Made by a program: the position numbers and the translations under genes
Notes under the pieces: model-generated
The model's database searches: none
Seen by the model: the letters and a program-made list of their open reading frames with translations, nothing else
What the model was told of the DNA's origin: nothing
In this document: positions 44,588 through 51,669 of the stretch, in pieces
How the letters are laid out: each line of letters begins with the position of its first letter
How positions within the stretch are numbered: position 1 is the stretch's first letter
From: Bacteroidia bacterium
GTDB lineage: Bacteria; Bacteroidota; Bacteroidia; SpSt-205
DNA length: 64,000 nt
Assembly: GCA_026003235.1 (NCBI GenBank)
Contig: BPGW01000003.1
Coordinates: forward strand, 1-64,000
Direction: 5' to 3'

Positions 44588-44614
44588 AGGCGGGTCTTCA
44601 CCCGCCTTTTTTTG
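44588..44614 (+). terminator. Intrinsic terminator of the rpsO-pnp-epimerase transcription unit
   Basis: AGGCGGGT / ACCCGCCT with a CTTC tetraloop is followed by seven T. It overlaps the 3' end of the convergent TPR gene (stop at 44598-44600). Confidence 0.92.
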
Positions 44615-47600
44615 TTGGCTTGGAGGAAGGGGTCCGGGTTTTTCGGGGCTTTTTGGGCGTTGGGGTGGAGTCGCGGGGGGTAGGATCGGTGGGGGGTATA
44701 GCGTCGCGCAAGGCCTGGGCTTCCTTCCGCAAAGCTTCAGTAGGAGCGTTTTCCACGAGGCTTTCAAGGAGGTGACGAGCTGATTTGCGTTTGTTTTCAG
44801 CGAGGAAGATACGGGCCAAGATGAGGTAAGCGCGCGCTCGCGGCTCCAGGTAGTTGGGCATCTCATCACGGAGGCGGTAGATGGCGGCCCTTGCTTCGTT
44901 ATAGAGGCCTTTTTGGTAGAGGATTCGGGCGCGGTGGTAAAGGGCTTCGGCAGCCAGGGCGCTTTTCTGGCCGCGTATCGTTTCTTCCAAGAGCGTTAGG
45001 GCGGAGTCGGGTAGGCCGGCTTTTTCGGCAGCCAGGGCGGAGAGAAGCTGTATTTTTTGCTGGAGGAGCGGGGGCAAAAGACTATCAGCGGCGAGGTTCC
45101 GGAGCACTGCCAGGGCGGTGTCGGGCTTACCTGACGCCGAAGCCAATTCAGCCCAGGTGATCAGACCTTGCAAGCGGAAGTACCCCCCTGCCGGCAAAAG
45201 CCGAAGCAGAGAATCTTGGCAAGCCCAGGCTTCGGAAAAGCGTCCTTGGGCCAGGTATAGGCGAGCTAAGGTCTCCCAGGCTTGGGTAGCGTATTCGGGC
45301 GCCTGGGTCAGTCGCCTGTACAAGTCCAGGGCAGCGCTCGTATCGTGCAGCTCTAAGAGGGCTCTTCCTTCCCAGAAGAGGGACTCCCCTTCGAGGGCAG
45401 GGTATCGTTCGCGCAGGCGCCTTGCCTCGTGCTTGAGGCTTTCCCAGCGCTCGGTCTCGGCCAGCTGGCGAAGCCGGTCTCGCTCCAAGGCCAGGCGAGT
45501 CTCGCTGTCGGGCGGTATCTTGCGCAGAAAAGCCTGATACACCTCCTCATAAGAAGCGGCCGGCAGAAGGGTTCTTAGCCCCTCCAGGGCCAGCTTGCAG
45601 GCTTCTACGGCGGTAGGGTAGTTCTCAAGGAGGCTTTGGAGGGTTTTTTGGGCAAGGTCCTTTTGGCCTAAGTCTATCAGCGCTAGCCCCAGGCGAGCTC
45701 GGACCAGCGGGGCCTTAGGTGACTGAGGAAAATGTGCCAGGAAAAGCTCGGCGGTCTGACGGGTGCAAGCGGGGTTGTTGGTCCAGAGGGCGCAAATTTC
45801 TGCGCGCAGGGCAAGGGCCTTTTCTGCGCCGGGGTCACTTAGGGAGAGGGAGGCCAGAACCTCTTCGGCTTCTTTGTACCGCTCCAGCCGCAGGAGCGTC
45901 TGAGCCAAGTGGTAGCGCACTTCGGCGGTGGGCAGCTCTTGGAGCAAGGTCCGATACCGGGTCAGGGCTTCTTCGTACCGCTTTTTGAGAAAATAAGCGC
46001 CTGCCGAGACGAAGAGGGCCCTGGGCCGCAGGTCGGCAGGGCCTTTTTGGATGAGGGGTTCGCTGTACCGGAGCGCTTCCTCGGGACGGTTGGTCTGGAG
46101 GAGCGTCCAGGCCAAAGCCAGGCGTGCTTCAGGTTCCAGGCCGGTCTGGCGCGCCTGCGGATGCTGGAGGAATCGCTTATACCCCGCCAGGGCGCTTTCC
46201 AGCCGCTGTTGTCGGTATTGGCTTTCAGCCAGCCAAAAGAGGGCTAACCCGGTATGGGGGCCTTCCAGGGTGCTGGCCTGGTAGAAGAGGCTTTCCGCCT
46301 CGGCGAAGGCGTTGTTTTTGAGGGCTTGGAAGGCGGCCAGCAGGTAGAGGCGCTGGCGCACTTCGGAGAGGGTGGGGAAGGTATCCAGCTGGGCCAGGGC
46401 CTCCGCAAAGTGAGCGCGAGCGGCTAAGCATTCGGCCAGCCAGCGTCGGGCTTCGGTACGGTTAGGGGCGCCAGGCAGGGCCAGGTACGCCTGGAGGGCT
46501 TCCTGGGCGGTCTCATAAAGGCGAAGCTGCCAAGCCAGTTGGGCCGCCATCCAAAGGGCCCCTGGACCGGGTGGAAGGGGCGAGAGGGGTACCCTTCGTA
46601 CATAAGCCAGGGCCTCTTCCGGGCGCCTGAGCCGGTAGAGGGCATGGGCCGAACCGTACAAAGCCCAGGCCGCTAAGCTATCAGGCCGGTTGAGTAGAGG
46701 TTCCCATAAAACAAGGGCCAAGCTGTCTTGGTGCTCATTCCAGGCGCACCAGCCCCGCCAGAGGCGAGCTAAGGGGTTCTCGTCCGCAAGGTAGGCGAAA
46801 GCTTCGGCTTTTTCGCAGAGTCCTCCTTGGGCCAGCGTAGCTACCACAAAAGGCCAGAGGGTATCGGCGTGGGCGGGTTGTTGGAGAGCCCATTTTTCGG
46901 CCCAGGATGCGAGGCGGGGCAGGTCGGGTATTTTAGCCAAGGCATAAGCCAGCCAAAGCGGGGCTTCCCGGGCGAAGGGCAAGCGAGTCTGAACGGTTTC
47001 AAGGTGGGTAGCGGCGGCCTTCCAGTTGCCCTGTTCGTAATACAGGAGCCCCACGTAGTAGTTGGCTGCGTCGTGGAAAGGCCCCAGCTGCTCCGTTAGC
47101 GGTTTTAGACGCGTGAGGGCCCGCAGGCGGTCGCCGGTCGCATACGCAGCGTAGCCCTCCATGAATTGCATTTCCTCCCGCAAGAGGCGCGGAAAGGCTT
47201 GGGGTGAAAGGCGAGCCAAATGTTCCAGGGTCTGGTCATACGCTTTGCGCAGGAAAGCGTACTTGGCGGCGTAGAAGCGGGCCAAGTTGCTTCGGTAGGA
47301 GGGGCTTTGCGTTTCGGCGTAGGTGCTCAGGGTGAGGGGTGCGCTTTCCCGAAGCAAGTCAAATAGGGCGTAGTTTTCCCACACCTCGGGTAGGGCGGAA
47401 GGAGGGGCTGCGGGTATAGGCAAGGGTACATGAGCCAGGTAAAGCCGGTCCACTTGGCGGGCCCAACTTTGCGCGCCGTAGAAGTGGAGCGGTTCGGCCT
47501 GGGTTCGCCAGCCTTCCGGTCCCCACAGGGGGGGTAAAGCCTGCGCCAGGAGGAGGCTGCTCAAGAGGCCCAGCGGCTGCGCCAGGCCCACCAAGAAGCA

Positions 47601-47618
47601 AGGGCTTCTTCGTGCCAT
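44598..47618 (-). CDS. Large periplasmic or outer-membrane-associated TPR protein
   Basis: The 1006-residue product has a signal-like N-terminus (CFLVGLAQPLGLLSSLLLAQA) and then about 25 degenerate TPR-type helix pairs along the whole length. Recurrent patterns are ALYHRARILYQKGLYNEARAA, EARLALAWTLLQTNRPEEAL, YHLAQTLLRLERYKEAEEVL and ARLYLAQGRFSEAW (quoted in part). The tail is Thr/Pro/Lys-rich. Such proteins are usually scaffolds. Its N-terminal 58 bases overlap the CHAD gene, so it is probably the last gene of the division/wall operon. No enzymatic domain is seen. The frame is intact over 3 kb. Confidence 0.82.
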   Translation of the reverse strand: MARRSPCFLVGLAQPLGLLSSLLLAQALPPLWGPEGWRTQAEPLHFYGAQSWARQVDRLYLAHVPLPIPAAPPSALPEVWENYALFDLLRESAPLTLSTYAETQSPSYRSNLARFYAAKYAFLRKAYDQTLEHLARLSPQAFPRLLREEMQFMEGYAAYATGDRLRALTRLKPLTEQLGPFHDAANYYVGLLYYEQGNWKAAATHLETVQTRLPFAREAPLWLAYALAKIPDLPRLASWAEKWALQQPAHADTLWPFVVATLAQGGLCEKAEAFAYLADENPLARLWRGWCAWNEHQDSLALVLWEPLLNRPDSLAAWALYGSAHALYRLRRPEEALAYVRRVPLSPLPPGPGALWMAAQLAWQLRLYETAQEALQAYLALPGAPNRTEARRWLAECLAARAHFAEALAQLDTFPTLSEVRQRLYLLAAFQALKNNAFAEAESLFYQASTLEGPHTGLALFWLAESQYRQQRLESALAGYKRFLQHPQARQTGLEPEARLALAWTLLQTNRPEEALRYSEPLIQKGPADLRPRALFVSAGAYFLKKRYEEALTRYRTLLQELPTAEVRYHLAQTLLRLERYKEAEEVLASLSLSDPGAEKALALRAEICALWTNNPACTRQTAELFLAHFPQSPKAPLVRARLGLALIDLGQKDLAQKTLQSLLENYPTAVEACKLALEGLRTLLPAASYEEVYQAFLRKIPPDSETRLALERDRLRQLAETERWESLKHEARRLRERYPALEGESLFWEGRALLELHDTSAALDLYRRLTQAPEYATQAWETLARLYLAQGRFSEAWACQDSLLRLLPAGGYFRLQGLITWAELASASGKPDTALAVLRNLAADSLLPPLLQQKIQLLSALAAEKAGLPDSALTLLEETIRGQKSALAAEALYHRARILYQKGLYNEARAAIYRLRDEMPNYLEPRARAYLILARIFLAENKRKSARHLLESLVENAPTEALRKEAQALRDAIPPTDPTPRDSTPTPKKPRKTRTPSSKPTKKGG

Positions 47619-48262
47619 CGTTGGTAACGGGATTGGATTGGGGCGAGAAGTTCAGGGTCCTGGGCTTTTTTCTTGGCCCACTTTAGGAAGAGGAAAATAT
47701 CCCGGGTTCGGCCGAGGGCCTTGGTGAGGTGTTTAGGTGGGGTCTCGGGGAGAGGATAAATTTCGGCGGCTTTTTCCCAGCTGCGCAAGAGGATACGCAG
47801 TTCGTGTGCCTGCTCTGGCAGGTAGGGTGGAGGAGGAAAGGCTTCCAGGCGGCTGCGCATAGCCTGCAACCAGGCTTCTACCTGACTTTGCCAAAAATGC
47901 TCCTCCTGAAGCGTGAAAGAAAAAGGAAAACGCTTTTTCCACCCATGCAGCGTCTTGCGGATGGGCGGGGCCAGCTCAGGGTACCGCGCAAGGAAGATCT
48001 TTTTTCGCTTGCGGAGTCTTTTCTTTGCGGCTTTCAGGAGGGAAGGGGCCCATTTTTGGGCGTATTTTTTATTCAGCCAGGCCCGGCGGAGCTTGCCTGT
48101 GAGCGCGTAGAGGGCGTCAAGGGCAGGTTCATTAGGGGGAGGAGCGGGGAAAGTGTACAACTCCAGGTAGACCCGTAGCCGTTTGACCCGCTGACGAAAG
48201 GCATAGACTGCTTTCGGAGAAGCTTTTTGGAGGCGCTTCAGTCGGAGGGCGAAAGGGTTCAT
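47561..48262 (-). CDS. CHAD-domain protein
   Basis: The 233-residue product is all-helical and very basic. It has the CHAD signature of paired His/Arg-rich helices: YAFRQRVKRLRVYLELY, then HELRILLRSWEKAAEIY and LGRTRDIFLFLKWAKK. CHAD domains bind inorganic polyphosphate, and some target polyphosphate granules. It overlaps the MurD-C-like gene by 4 bases (ATGA) and the TPR gene by 58, so all three are co-expressed. A link to wall synthesis is inference from position. Confidence 0.8.
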   Translation of the reverse strand: MNPFALRLKRLQKASPKAVYAFRQRVKRLRVYLELYTFPAPPPNEPALDALYALTGKLRRAWLNKKYAQKWAPSLLKAAKKRLRKRKKIFLARYPELAPPIRKTLHGWKKRFPFSFTLQEEHFWQSQVEAWLQAMRSRLEAFPPPPYLPEQAHELRILLRSWEKAAEIYPLPETPPKHLTKALGRTRDIFLFLKWAKKKAQDPELLAPIQSRYQRWHEEALASWWAWRSRWAS

Positions 48263-48861
48263 TCGGAGAGACGATGGGAGAGGCGTAGGACCGCTTCTCG
48301 GAAAGCGTTGCCGCGCGCTTCGTAGCTTTCAAACCAGTCAAAGCTTGGGCAGCCCGGAGACAAAAGCACCACATCGCCCGGTTTGGCCAGCGTGTAGGCT
48401 TTTTCCACGGCGTCTTCCATGGAGGTGGCCCGAAGGAGGGTAGGTATAACCGGCTGAAAGGCTTCAAGCAGCCGATCGGGGTTGGCTCCGATGAGGACCA
48501 AAGCCTTCACCCGGGCCTGTACGAGAGGTAGGATTTCGCCCCAATCGTTGCCTTTGTCCAGCCCGCCGGCGATCCACACCACCGGCCGTTCTAAGTCCTG
48601 CAGCGTATCCCATACGGATCGAGGGGTCGTGGCTGCGGAGTCGTTTATATACAGCACACCTTGGAAGAAAGCCACTCGCTCGCTGTGATGCGGCTCCAAG
48701 TGGGGCATATAAAAGATGCGCCGGAGTTCACGATCTTGAATTTCTTTTTGTCGCTGGGCTATTTTCTGGGCCAGCGTCTGCGAGACCTCCTGAAGCGGCT
48801 CAGGTGAAGGCTGAGCCTCGGCCGGAGGGGCAGGAGTCTTGGGATATTTGGGTTTTCTCAT
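48259..48861 (-). CDS. Stand-alone MurD C-terminal-domain paralogue with altered motif
   Basis: The 200-residue product has a Pro/Ala/Glu-rich N-terminus, then a helix rich in R, Q and E (AQKIAQRQKEIQDREL). From about residue 65 it is a close copy of the C-terminal domain of the adjacent MurD: VLYINDSAATT versus VLYVNDSKATT, VWIAGGLDKGNDWG, LLSPGCPSFDWF. The N-terminal UDP-binding and central ATP-binding domains are absent. The conserved Lys of NDSKATT is Ala76. It therefore cannot be an autonomous ligase. Located 10 bases after murD, it looks like a tandem partial duplication kept under selection, since the frame is intact. Possible roles are a regulator of MurD or a nucleotide-binding adaptor. 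Confidence 0.85.
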   Translation of the reverse strand: MRKPKYPKTPAPPAEAQPSPEPLQEVSQTLAQKIAQRQKEIQDRELRRIFYMPHLEPHHSERVAFFQGVLYINDSAATTPRSVWDTLQDLERPVVWIAGGLDKGNDWGEILPLVQARVKALVLIGANPDRLLEAFQPVIPTLLRATSMEDAVEKAYTLAKPGDVVLLSPGCPSFDWFESYEARGNAFREAVLRLSHRLSE

Positions 48862-48871
48862 AAATCAAAGG

Positions 48872-50263
48872 TTAGCTGGAAGGGTTTTCTGAGAGACGGG
48901 TCTGGAGTTGCCGGACAGCGGCTCGGAAAGCTTCTCCGCGCTCCTCGTAGCTGCGAAACCAGTCAAAGCTTGCGCAGCCTGGGGAAAGGAGGACCACATC
49001 ACCCGGCGAAGCCAAGAGGTGGGCTTTCTCCACCGCTTCGTCCATGGAGGCTGCCCAGTCCAGGTAAGGCACGACAGGGTGAAAAGCCCTTTCCAGGGTT
49101 TGGGTGTCCTTGCCGATCAAGATGAGGGCTTTGACCTGTTTTTGCACGGCCTGTAGGAGGAGTCCCCAGTCGTTGCCCTTGTCTACCCCGCCCGCAATCC
49201 AGATTACGGGCCGTTCATAGTTTTTCAGGGCATACCATACCGCCTCGGTGGTAGTGGCTTTGGAATCGTTGACATAGAGCACTCCCTGGATGTGGGCGAC
49301 AGGCTCCAGGCGGTGAGGATACGGCTGGAAAGTTTCAAACGCTCGGCGCAGCGTTTCCTGGCGGGTGCGAATCAGGTGAGCCGCTGCAAGGAGGGCTGGT
49401 AGCCCATTCTTTCGCTGGGGAAGGGATTCTAAGGGGGTTCCTTCGTAGGAGACCTCCCAGCGTTCTTCTTCGTATTCGGTGTGTTTCATAAGGCAGACGA
49501 GGAAAGGCGGTTCTATCCAGGCGTGGATGCCGGGGCCAGGCGTTTCCCGGAAGCGCCATACCTGGGCCTGGGTGGGGTAGTGGGCCAGGGCCGCTTCCAG
49601 GTGAGGGCTGCCCGCATCGTATAGGAAGGCGGCTGTGGGGGGCAGGCGCTTGAGAAGGTGGAGCTTGGCGTCAGCGTACGCTTCGAGCGTGCCGTGCCAG
49701 TCAAGGTGGTTAGGGGCCAGGTTCGTCACCACAAAGAGGTGAGGCACCACACTCCAAGCGTCCCAGAGCTGGAAAGAGCTGGCCTCCACCACGTAGTACT
49801 CGGTTGAAGGGTGGTCTAAAATCGCTTCGCAGAAGCTGTAGCCAATATTTCCGCAGGCGAGAGCTTTTTTACCTGCGGTCTTTAGGAGGTGAGCCAAGAG
49901 GTGGGTGGTGGAAGTTTTGCCGGTGGTGCCGGTGACCATCCACAGCTGAGCGTTGGGCGGGAAATGGAGCCATCCCCATTCCAGGTCTGAGCAGTGGGGG
50001 ATGCCTTGCTCACGCAGGCGGAGGAGGGTGGGGTTGTCAGGTCGGATGCCCGGGCTGCGCACGACCATGTCGCACGAGGAGAAAAGGGGGTAAGGGTCAG
50101 CCGTGATCGTCCAAGAGAGGCCGGCCTGGCTCAAGCGTTCTGCATAGGGGGGGGCCGGCGGATGTGAAGCAGCAAGCACCACCTGGTAGCCCTGCCTGTG
50201 GGCAAGCAGGGCTGCACCCGTTCCACTCTCACCTAAGCCCCATATTCCTATTCGGCGTTTCAT
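48872..50263 (-). CDS. murD: UDP-N-acetylmuramoyl-L-alanine--D-glutamate ligase
   Basis: MurD adds D-Glu to UDP-MurNAc-L-Ala in the cytoplasm. The 463-residue product has an N-terminal Rossmann-like domain (GIWGLGESGTGAAL), ATP-binding MVTGTTGKTSTTHLL, FVVTNLAPNHLDWHGTLEAY, and the C-terminal domain with HRLEPVAHIQGVLYVNDSKATT and LLSPGCASFDWF. All catalytic motifs are kept. The start overlaps the mraY stop by 4 bases. Confidence 0.97.
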   Translation of the reverse strand: MKRRIGIWGLGESGTGAALLAHRQGYQVVLAASHPPAPPYAERLSQAGLSWTITADPYPLFSSCDMVVRSPGIRPDNPTLLRLREQGIPHCSDLEWGWLHFPPNAQLWMVTGTTGKTSTTHLLAHLLKTAGKKALACGNIGYSFCEAILDHPSTEYYVVEASSFQLWDAWSVVPHLFVVTNLAPNHLDWHGTLEAYADAKLHLLKRLPPTAAFLYDAGSPHLEAALAHYPTQAQVWRFRETPGPGIHAWIEPPFLVCLMKHTEYEEERWEVSYEGTPLESLPQRKNGLPALLAAAHLIRTRQETLRRAFETFQPYPHRLEPVAHIQGVLYVNDSKATTTEAVWYALKNYERPVIWIAGGVDKGNDWGLLLQAVQKQVKALILIGKDTQTLERAFHPVVPYLDWAASMDEAVEKAHLLASPGDVVLLSPGCASFDWFRSYEERGEAFRAAVRQLQTRLSENPSS

Positions 50264-51669
50264 CGGAGTTTCAGGGTTATAAAGGCGAGGGCATTCAAAA
50301 GCAGAGCGACTATCCAGAAGCGAATAACCACTTTTACTTCATGCCAGCCTTGCAGTTCAAAGTGGTGGTGAATAGGGGACATGCGGAAAATGCGCCGTCC
50401 CTCGCCGTAGCGTCGCCGGGTGTACTTGAAGTAAGCCACCTGGATCATCACCGAGAGCGTTTCGGCAAAGGAGATGCCGGCGATAAGGGGCAGGAGCAGT
50501 TCTTTTTTGACCATGAGGGCGATGGCGCCCATAAGGCCGCCCAGCATGAGGCTGCCTGTGTCGCCCATAAAGACCTGAGCGGGATAGGCATTGTACCACA
50601 GGAAGGCCAAGGAGGCTCCTACCACCACCCCACAGAAGACGGTGACTTCGGCGGCGTGGGGAAGGTACAGGATCATAAAGTAGTCGGCCCAGATGCGGTT
50701 GCTGGAGAAGTAAGCGAAGCTGCCCAGGCTCACAAAGGCGATAGCTCCTACTCCGATAGCCAGGCCGTCCAGGCCGTCGGTGAGGTTGAAGGCGTTGCTG
50801 GTAGCGGTGAGGATGAAGAGGACGACAAGCCCATACAGCCCCAGCTGAAGCTGGTAAGGCAGGCGCCAGGCGCCAAAGCGGCCGTACTCCATTTCCTGAG
50901 ACTTGAGGAAAGGCAGGTTCGTTCGCAAGAGCAGTTCGGGGTTTTGCCGTCCGAAAAGGGCTGTGGCCACGGCTTCTTGGCTTTCGGGGGGTATAAAGAG
51001 GCGAAGCGTGTCTTGGTCTCGTTGTAGGAGGTACGAGGCGGGGTAATGCCCCAGGTCGCCGGTAGGCCTGAAGCGCCAGCTCTCATAGACGAAGGGGCGG
51101 TCTTCTATGGCCAGAAGGCGGTCTCCCTGGCGGAAGCCAGCGGCTTTGAGGGGGCCCACCAGCCGAATCTCCCCTTCAGGTCCGACATGGGCGCGTGTGC
51201 TGTAAAAGGCTGGCTCCAGGACCATCAGCAGGACCAGCCAAAGGGCGGCCAGGACCTGACCCAGGAGCTTCAGCCGGGGTCGGAGGCCTTTTTTACTGCG
51301 GGTTTGCTTGAGCCAGTCATCCAGGAAGCCCAGCGTGCCCAGCCAGAGGGCCAGGCCCAAGAGGGCCCACAAATAGGGGCTTCGCAGGTCGCCCCAGAGA
51401 AGGGTTCCCACCAGGAGGCTTATCCCTATCAGAAGGCCTCCCATGGTAGGGGTGCCTTTTTTGCTGGCGTGGGTAGCGGGCCCCTCCTGCCGGATCGTTT
51501 CTTGAAAGGACATTTTAGCCAGCCATCGGATGAGGGTGGGCCCAAGCAGCCACCCTACCAAGGCCGCTGTAAAGCCCCCCATCAGCGTACGAAAGCTCAG
51601 ATAATAAGCCAAGCCCATGCCAGGCAGGTCGTAGTGGGCATCCAGGTAGCGCATCAGCTCAGCCAGCAT
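50260..51669 (-). CDS. mraY: Phospho-MurNAc-pentapeptide transferase with PDZ-like insert
   Basis: MraY moves phospho-MurNAc-pentapeptide to undecaprenyl phosphate in the inner membrane to form lipid I. The 469-residue product is longer than the usual 320-420. Core motifs are KKGTPTMGGLL, the catalytic FLDDWLK (about 115-121), SNAFNLTDGLDGLA and SPIHHHFELQGW. About 100 extra residues (155-255) separate two membrane helices and contain VGPLKAAGFRQGDRLLAIEDRPF (written in part), a PDZ-type carboxylate-loop pattern. The start may be 51669 or 51654; the first overlaps murE. Confidence 0.95.
   Translation of the reverse strand: MLAELMRYLDAHYDLPGMGLAYYLSFRTLMGGFTAALVGWLLGPTLIRWLAKMSFQETIRQEGPATHASKKGTPTMGGLLIGISLLVGTLLWGDLRSPYLWALLGLALWLGTLGFLDDWLKQTRSKKGLRPRLKLLGQVLAALWLVLLMVLEPAFYSTRAHVGPEGEIRLVGPLKAAGFRQGDRLLAIEDRPFVYESWRFRPTGDLGHYPASYLLQRDQDTLRLFIPPESQEAVATALFGRQNPELLLRTNLPFLKSQEMEYGRFGAWRLPYQLQLGLYGLVVLFILTATSNAFNLTDGLDGLAIGVGAIAFVSLGSFAYFSSNRIWADYFMILYLPHAAEVTVFCGVVVGASLAFLWYNAYPAQVFMGDTGSLMLGGLMGAIALMVKKELLLPLIAGISFAETLSVMIQVAYFKYTRRRYGEGRRIFRMSPIHHHFELQGWHEVKVVIRFWIVALLLNALAFITLKLR

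Follow-up and report, generated by a model that had tools for sequence, protein, structure and literature searches.

Stand-alone copies of MurD domain 3 encoded beside murD in Bacteroidia: candidate partners or regulators of the ligase

MurD is an essential enzyme and a drug target, and its catalysis depends on the closing of domain 3. A relative of the Mur ligases, MurT, carries a Mur-ligase ATP domain, has catalytic activity of its own and is found in the GatD/MurT partner complex. Without ligands, MurD is found mainly in the open state, and binding of D-Glu is confined to the closed ternary state (PMC4652230). The residues Thr321, Lys348 and Ser415 contact D-Glu (PMC4652230; PMC3527612), and Lys319, which is located near the ATP gamma-phosphate, UMA and ADP, moves closer to UMA and ADP on closure (PMC4652230). 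There is also precedent for inhibition of MurD by a protein, namely MigC, a COG0523 GTPase of Acinetobacter baumannii (PMC12208494).

Here we describe a gene, called the orphan below, that encodes domain 3 of MurD by itself. It is found in a window of 64,000 nucleotides from contig BPGW01000003.1 of a Bacteroidia bacterium. The orphan resembles the MurD ligase in its domain 3 sequence, its predicted fold and its D-Glu pocket residues, and it comes from the lineage of the adjacent MurD. Unlike the ligase, it lacks the UDP-binding and ATP-binding domains, has lost the equivalents of Arg302 and Lys319, and scores 141.2 bits against the curated cut-off of 211.95 bits for the murD equivalog (TIGR01087). 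The role proposed below is similar to that of MigC, in that a protein partner binds and inhibits MurD, although MigC is a zinc-binding GTPase and contains no copy of a MurD domain (PMC12208494). MurT is likewise a Mur-ligase relative acting in a partner complex, but its structural match to the orphan is weak, with only 12-14% identity. Residue numbers are those of E. coli K-12 MurD, for which structure numbering equals gene numbering minus one.

Gene, fold and neighbours

The orphan ORF extends for 200 codons from an ATG and has no internal stop (Table 1), and thus the intact frame noted in a sequence-only reading of this DNA is borne out. BLASTP aligns the product without gaps to residues 305-459 of the adjacent MurD, with 97 of 155 positions identical (62.6%). 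The sequence-only reading had recognized this collinearity with the MurD C-terminal domain, but had put it at 135 residues rather than 155. Pfam detects Mur_ligase_C (PF02875) alone, at E 7e-14 and 53.2 bits against a gathering cut-off of 28.4, and the predicted fold agrees with this assignment. The N-terminal and ATP-binding (middle) domains of MurD are absent, which upholds the earlier view that the orphan is no ligase by itself. In the window's own MurD, the middle and C domains are above the Pfam cut-off and the N domain is sub-threshold.

The murD model covers only orphan residues 22-192, corresponding to profile positions 270-440. Because this match starts at residue 22, the helix that follows stems from the last part of MurD domain 2. 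The N-terminus had been described as wholly new, and this holds for the Pro-rich tail but not for the helix.

A chance ORF or a misread frame is ruled out by the intact ORF, the match to MurD and the sequence constraint described below. Fusion to MurD by readthrough or frameshifting is disfavoured, given that the orphan has its own ATG, which is in a different frame and comes 13 nt after the murD stop codon begins.

An AlphaFold2 model of the orphan, for which sequences from the window and the loci were aligned, has a mean pLDDT of 90.5 and a core of about 97. The structures that Foldseek ranks closest to it are C-terminal domains from crystallized MurD proteins (E 2e-13, with an rmsd of 1.6 A for 141 columns). 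A comparable gene from another member of the class (L034) also has a confidently predicted fold (pTM 0.85).

Table 1. Features of the orphan gene and its neighbours in the window.
Feature	Position	Strand	Basis or remark
Orphan gene, stand-alone MurD domain 3, 200 aa (P0001)	48259..48861	-	ORF, BLASTP, Pfam, murD model
Orphan residues 1-22, new Pro-rich N-terminal tail	48796..48861	-	probably disordered (pLDDT about 71)
Orphan residues 23-50, long helix from end of MurD domain 2	48712..48795	-	
Orphan residues 57-200, complete MurD domain 3 (Mur_ligase_C) fold	48262..48693	-	
His59	48685..48687	-	in place of an invariant Arg (Arg302 in E. coli MurD)
Ala76 (codon GCA)	48634..48636	-	in place of an invariant Lys (Lys319 in E. 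coli MurD)
Lys103	48553..48555	-	kept; counterpart of Lys348 in E. coli, which contacts D-Glu (PMC4652230)
Ser173	48343..48345	-	kept; counterpart of Ser415 in E. coli, which contacts D-Glu (PMC4652230)
murD, intact parent gene	48872..50263	-	10 nt from its stop to orphan ATG
CHAD-like gene	47561..48262	-	its ATG overlaps orphan stop (ATGA)
TPR protein gene	44598..47618	-	last gene of conserved genus operon examined; clear Pfam TPR match

Nine other genomes of the genus share the operon order ftsI-murE-mraY-murD-CHAD-TPR wherever it is covered, and the CHAD-like gene is fixed behind murD throughout these relatives. The TPR protein was correctly named in the sequence-only reading. The CHAD label applies only by way of genus homologs, one of which (L050) is above the Pfam CHAD cut-off, since the window's copy has no CHAD score in Pfam. 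An ftsW-like gene is located elsewhere on the same contig (C3:209176-210228). At 469 aa, the MraY of this genus (window 50260-51669, minus strand) carries an insert of about 100 residues, located at roughly positions 150-255. This insert includes a PDZ-like stretch whose match falls far short of the threshold (PDZ_2 E 0.29).

This gene arrangement bears on the possibility that the orphan is a scaffold, wherein domain 3 and its Pro-rich and helical tail would tether MurD to cell-wall proteins and leave catalysis unchanged. The partners would be the CHAD and TPR proteins here and FtsW or MurG in other lineages. The operon position and the form of the N-terminus are consistent with such a role, and the N-termini of the related orphans described below are variable. 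However, the CHAD and TPR genes also trail murD in relatives that have no orphan, and the neighbours vary between lineages. An earlier suggestion that the orphan couples MurD to CHAD and TPR proteins is weakened on the same grounds, and also because ftsW adjoins such orphans in other Bacteroidia. We consider the scaffold to be quite unlikely.

Residues lost, residues kept and selection

There are 53 domain 3 columns that are invariant in the MurD proteins of the genus, and the orphan differs at three of them (Thr to Met52, Arg302 to His59 and Lys319 to Ala76). Among 32 MurD proteins from Bacteroidia there are 23 invariant columns, of which the orphan alters exactly two, the Arg302 and Lys319 equivalents. 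The second of these changes, from NDSKATT to NDSAATT, had been read correctly from the sequence, and the first, from PHR to PHH, had been missed. Arg302 and Lys319 are both residues of the phosphate site. With both residues lost, the orphan should be unable to support the phosphate steps, and nucleotide binding, which had been proposed earlier, is therefore unlikely.

The equivalents of the D-Glu pocket residues Thr321, Lys348 and Ser415 are all kept, which may reflect nothing beyond constraint on the fold. They would also be expected if the orphan served a function independent of MurD, as a D-Glu or UDP-MurNAc-peptide binding protein that acts as a sensor or buffer. However, MurD itself binds D-Glu only with the participation of domain 2 and when closed (PMC4652230), and thus a lone domain 3 is expected to bind D-Glu poorly. 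Moreover, Lys348 is lost in 16 of 18 related orphans from other Bacteroidia, and we regard a MurD-independent binder as very unlikely.

Identity between the orphan and its MurD is 69, 80 and 46% at the three codon positions. By the NG86 method, dN is 0.33 and dS is 1.21, giving a dN/dS of about 0.27 from one pairwise comparison at high dS in the one species known to carry this orphan. Neutral simulation to the same nucleotide identity gives about 40% amino acid identity, versus the 63% seen, and 4.5 stops on average, with a probability of 0.007 that no stop arises. At 0.4-0.6 neutral changes per site, this probability is 0.004-0.014 and amino acid identity is 34-47%; when 0.6 changes per site are placed on the orphan alone, the probability is 0.004. 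A relative-rate calculation yields a dN of 0.18-0.22 for the orphan branch versus 0.11-0.15 for the MurD branch, such that the orphan protein evolves at roughly 1.2-2 times the rate of MurD. These codon comparisons indicate that the orphan is under purifying selection, which is relaxed and yet still constrains the protein.

A functionless partial duplicate awaiting loss would also evolve faster than MurD, might well have lost two key residues, and would be restricted to one lineage, as this gene is among the nine genus relatives with the locus. In such a fragment, the absence of any gap or stop at this level of divergence, the retention of 50 of the 53 genus-invariant residues and the ATGA overlap with the next gene would be hard to account for, and the simulations speak against neutral drift. 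Decay is thus improbable, and the accumulation of stop codons that the sequence-only reading had named as a sign of it is not observed.

Origin of the orphan and an older family

There is no orphan in any of the nine genus relatives that include the locus (9/9), among them the MAGs SKW103 (JANZYW010000020.1, G009) and RSWP8 (G011), and a CHAD-like gene directly follows murD in each. Genome-wide searches of these nine found one MurD domain 3 per genome and no second, and the family and order relatives examined also lack an orphan. We would guess that the habitat is a hot spring. In a domain 3 tree, the window's orphan falls inside the MurD clade of the genus (96/96), and a topology with it as sister to the adjacent MurD is not rejected (p 0.557). 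Its dS to that MurD is lower than to every other MurD of the genus (1.6 or more, or saturated). Branches in the species placement from operon genes are weakly supported, and the tree alone gives the duplication no date. The simplest reading of these sequence comparisons is that part of murD, its 3' end, was duplicated in tandem in the window's lineage and gave rise to the orphan.

Absence from all relatives had been put forward as a mark of a recent, decaying duplicate, and the nine genus relatives do lack the gene. Nonetheless, a search for the same architecture beside murD, which the sequence-only reading had called for, finds it to be recurrent across the class. Stand-alone MurD domain 3 genes of about 160-240 aa adjoin an intact murD in other Bacteroidia, in the order mraY-murD-orphan-ftsW-murG where flanks reach that far. 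Such a paralog is present in about 80 of 395 other genomes of the class, from about 19 families, by a hand count of second matches that were inspected in part; in the checked cases they are mostly located between murD and ftsW. All sampled genomes of three families (f11, f13 and f39) carry the gene, and few or none do in others. Carriers include Flavobacteriales MAGs (L057, L060, L087 and L088) and Bacteroidia or Bacteroidetes MAGs (L104, L108 and L111). In the phylum sample outside the class, there are only two second matches (G413 and G545), and both are split MurDs.

One match within the class (G221) was also a split MurD and was removed from the count. Weak second matches to the orphan profile (E about 1e-5 to 1e-3) in full-length frames of eight genomes (G017, G056, G074, G076, G092, G094, G099 and G106) were left uncounted and are probably other Mur ligases. 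Two stand-alone domain 3 genes are found in tandem behind one murD (G291:C269:11132-12125, L192). Further paralogs unlinked to murD (L039, L040, L041 and L042, in G054, G057 and G015) are mostly more degenerate, and some have lost the RG motif. In one Flavobacteriales MAG, a strongly eroded domain 3-like ORF of 113 aa immediately follows murD (L117:5600-5938), and it may represent this gene at a late stage.

Eighteen of the orphans from other Bacteroidia form one group in the tree, although with weak support (43/90). They almost always keep His301, Asn316, Ser318 and Arg425-Gly426. Three residues that are invariant or nearly so in MurD have been lost to various extents: besides Lys348, these are Lys319 (9/18) and Arg302 (8/18). 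These orphans (for example L034, L038, L033, L111 and L060) are similar to the window's in architecture, in key-residue losses and in being located directly downstream of an intact murD. They differ in having ftsW rather than a CHAD gene next and in mostly lacking Lys348, which the window's orphan keeps. They also differ in origin: a single clade of the window's orphan and these 18 is rejected (AU p = 0.0006), a value to be read with long branches and gene conversion in mind. Judged from sequence, the family is older than the window's copy and separate from it in origin.

Gene conversion could itself cause such a rejection, and the window's orphan might then be a member of the older family that was overwritten from the adjacent murD. 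Its position and domain boundaries match that family. However, none of the relatives examined at genus, family or order level has an orphan, which argues against this history, and we rate it as very improbable. A partial tandem duplication is an ordinary origin; it is the recurrence, the selective disarming and the constraint that are unusual. A search of open-licence papers yielded no description of a MurD paralog or a stand-alone domain 3 gene, and the older family between murD and ftsW is apparently undescribed.

A possible role in trans on MurD

The recurrence of this design beside murD suggests an undescribed partner or regulator of MurD, and we infer that such a role best accounts for domain 3 genes that are recurrent, constrained, disarmed and coupled to murD. 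One point against this explanation is that most older orphans have lost Lys348 and so depart from the exact pattern seen in the window. A role as MurD partner had been raised in the sequence-only reading and is plausible. We tentatively favour, at somewhat less than an even chance, a scheme wherein partial duplication of murD produced a free domain 3 that acts in trans on MurD.

By this scheme, the 3' end of murD, encoding the last helix of domain 2 and domain 3, was duplicated in tandem, such that domain 3 is now also encoded as a separate protein alongside MurD. The copy has kept its predicted fold, hinge helix and D-Glu pocket and has lost Arg302 and Lys319. Isolated domain 3 of E. coli MurD gives uniform NMR signals (PMC4652230). 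Most likely, the orphan would dock on the face of MurD domains 1 and 2 that is left exposed when the ligase's resident domain 3 swings open, and the resulting closed complex would be inactive or slower. The outcome would be either that flux through MurD is tuned or that MurD is stabilized. Translation of the orphan, its binding to MurD and the direction of the effect are all steps that we infer. It is possible, if rather unlikely, that Bacteroidia have at least twice copied the moving domain of MurD into a disarmed gene of the murD operon, where it serves as a lid decoy that controls the flux of peptidoglycan precursors.

A disarmed domain 3 of this kind would act as a naturally occurring protein inhibitor of MurD or as a scaffold for it. 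Its repeated origin beside murD and its retention under selection in many Bacteroidia families point to an unrecognized control of this early step of peptidoglycan synthesis.
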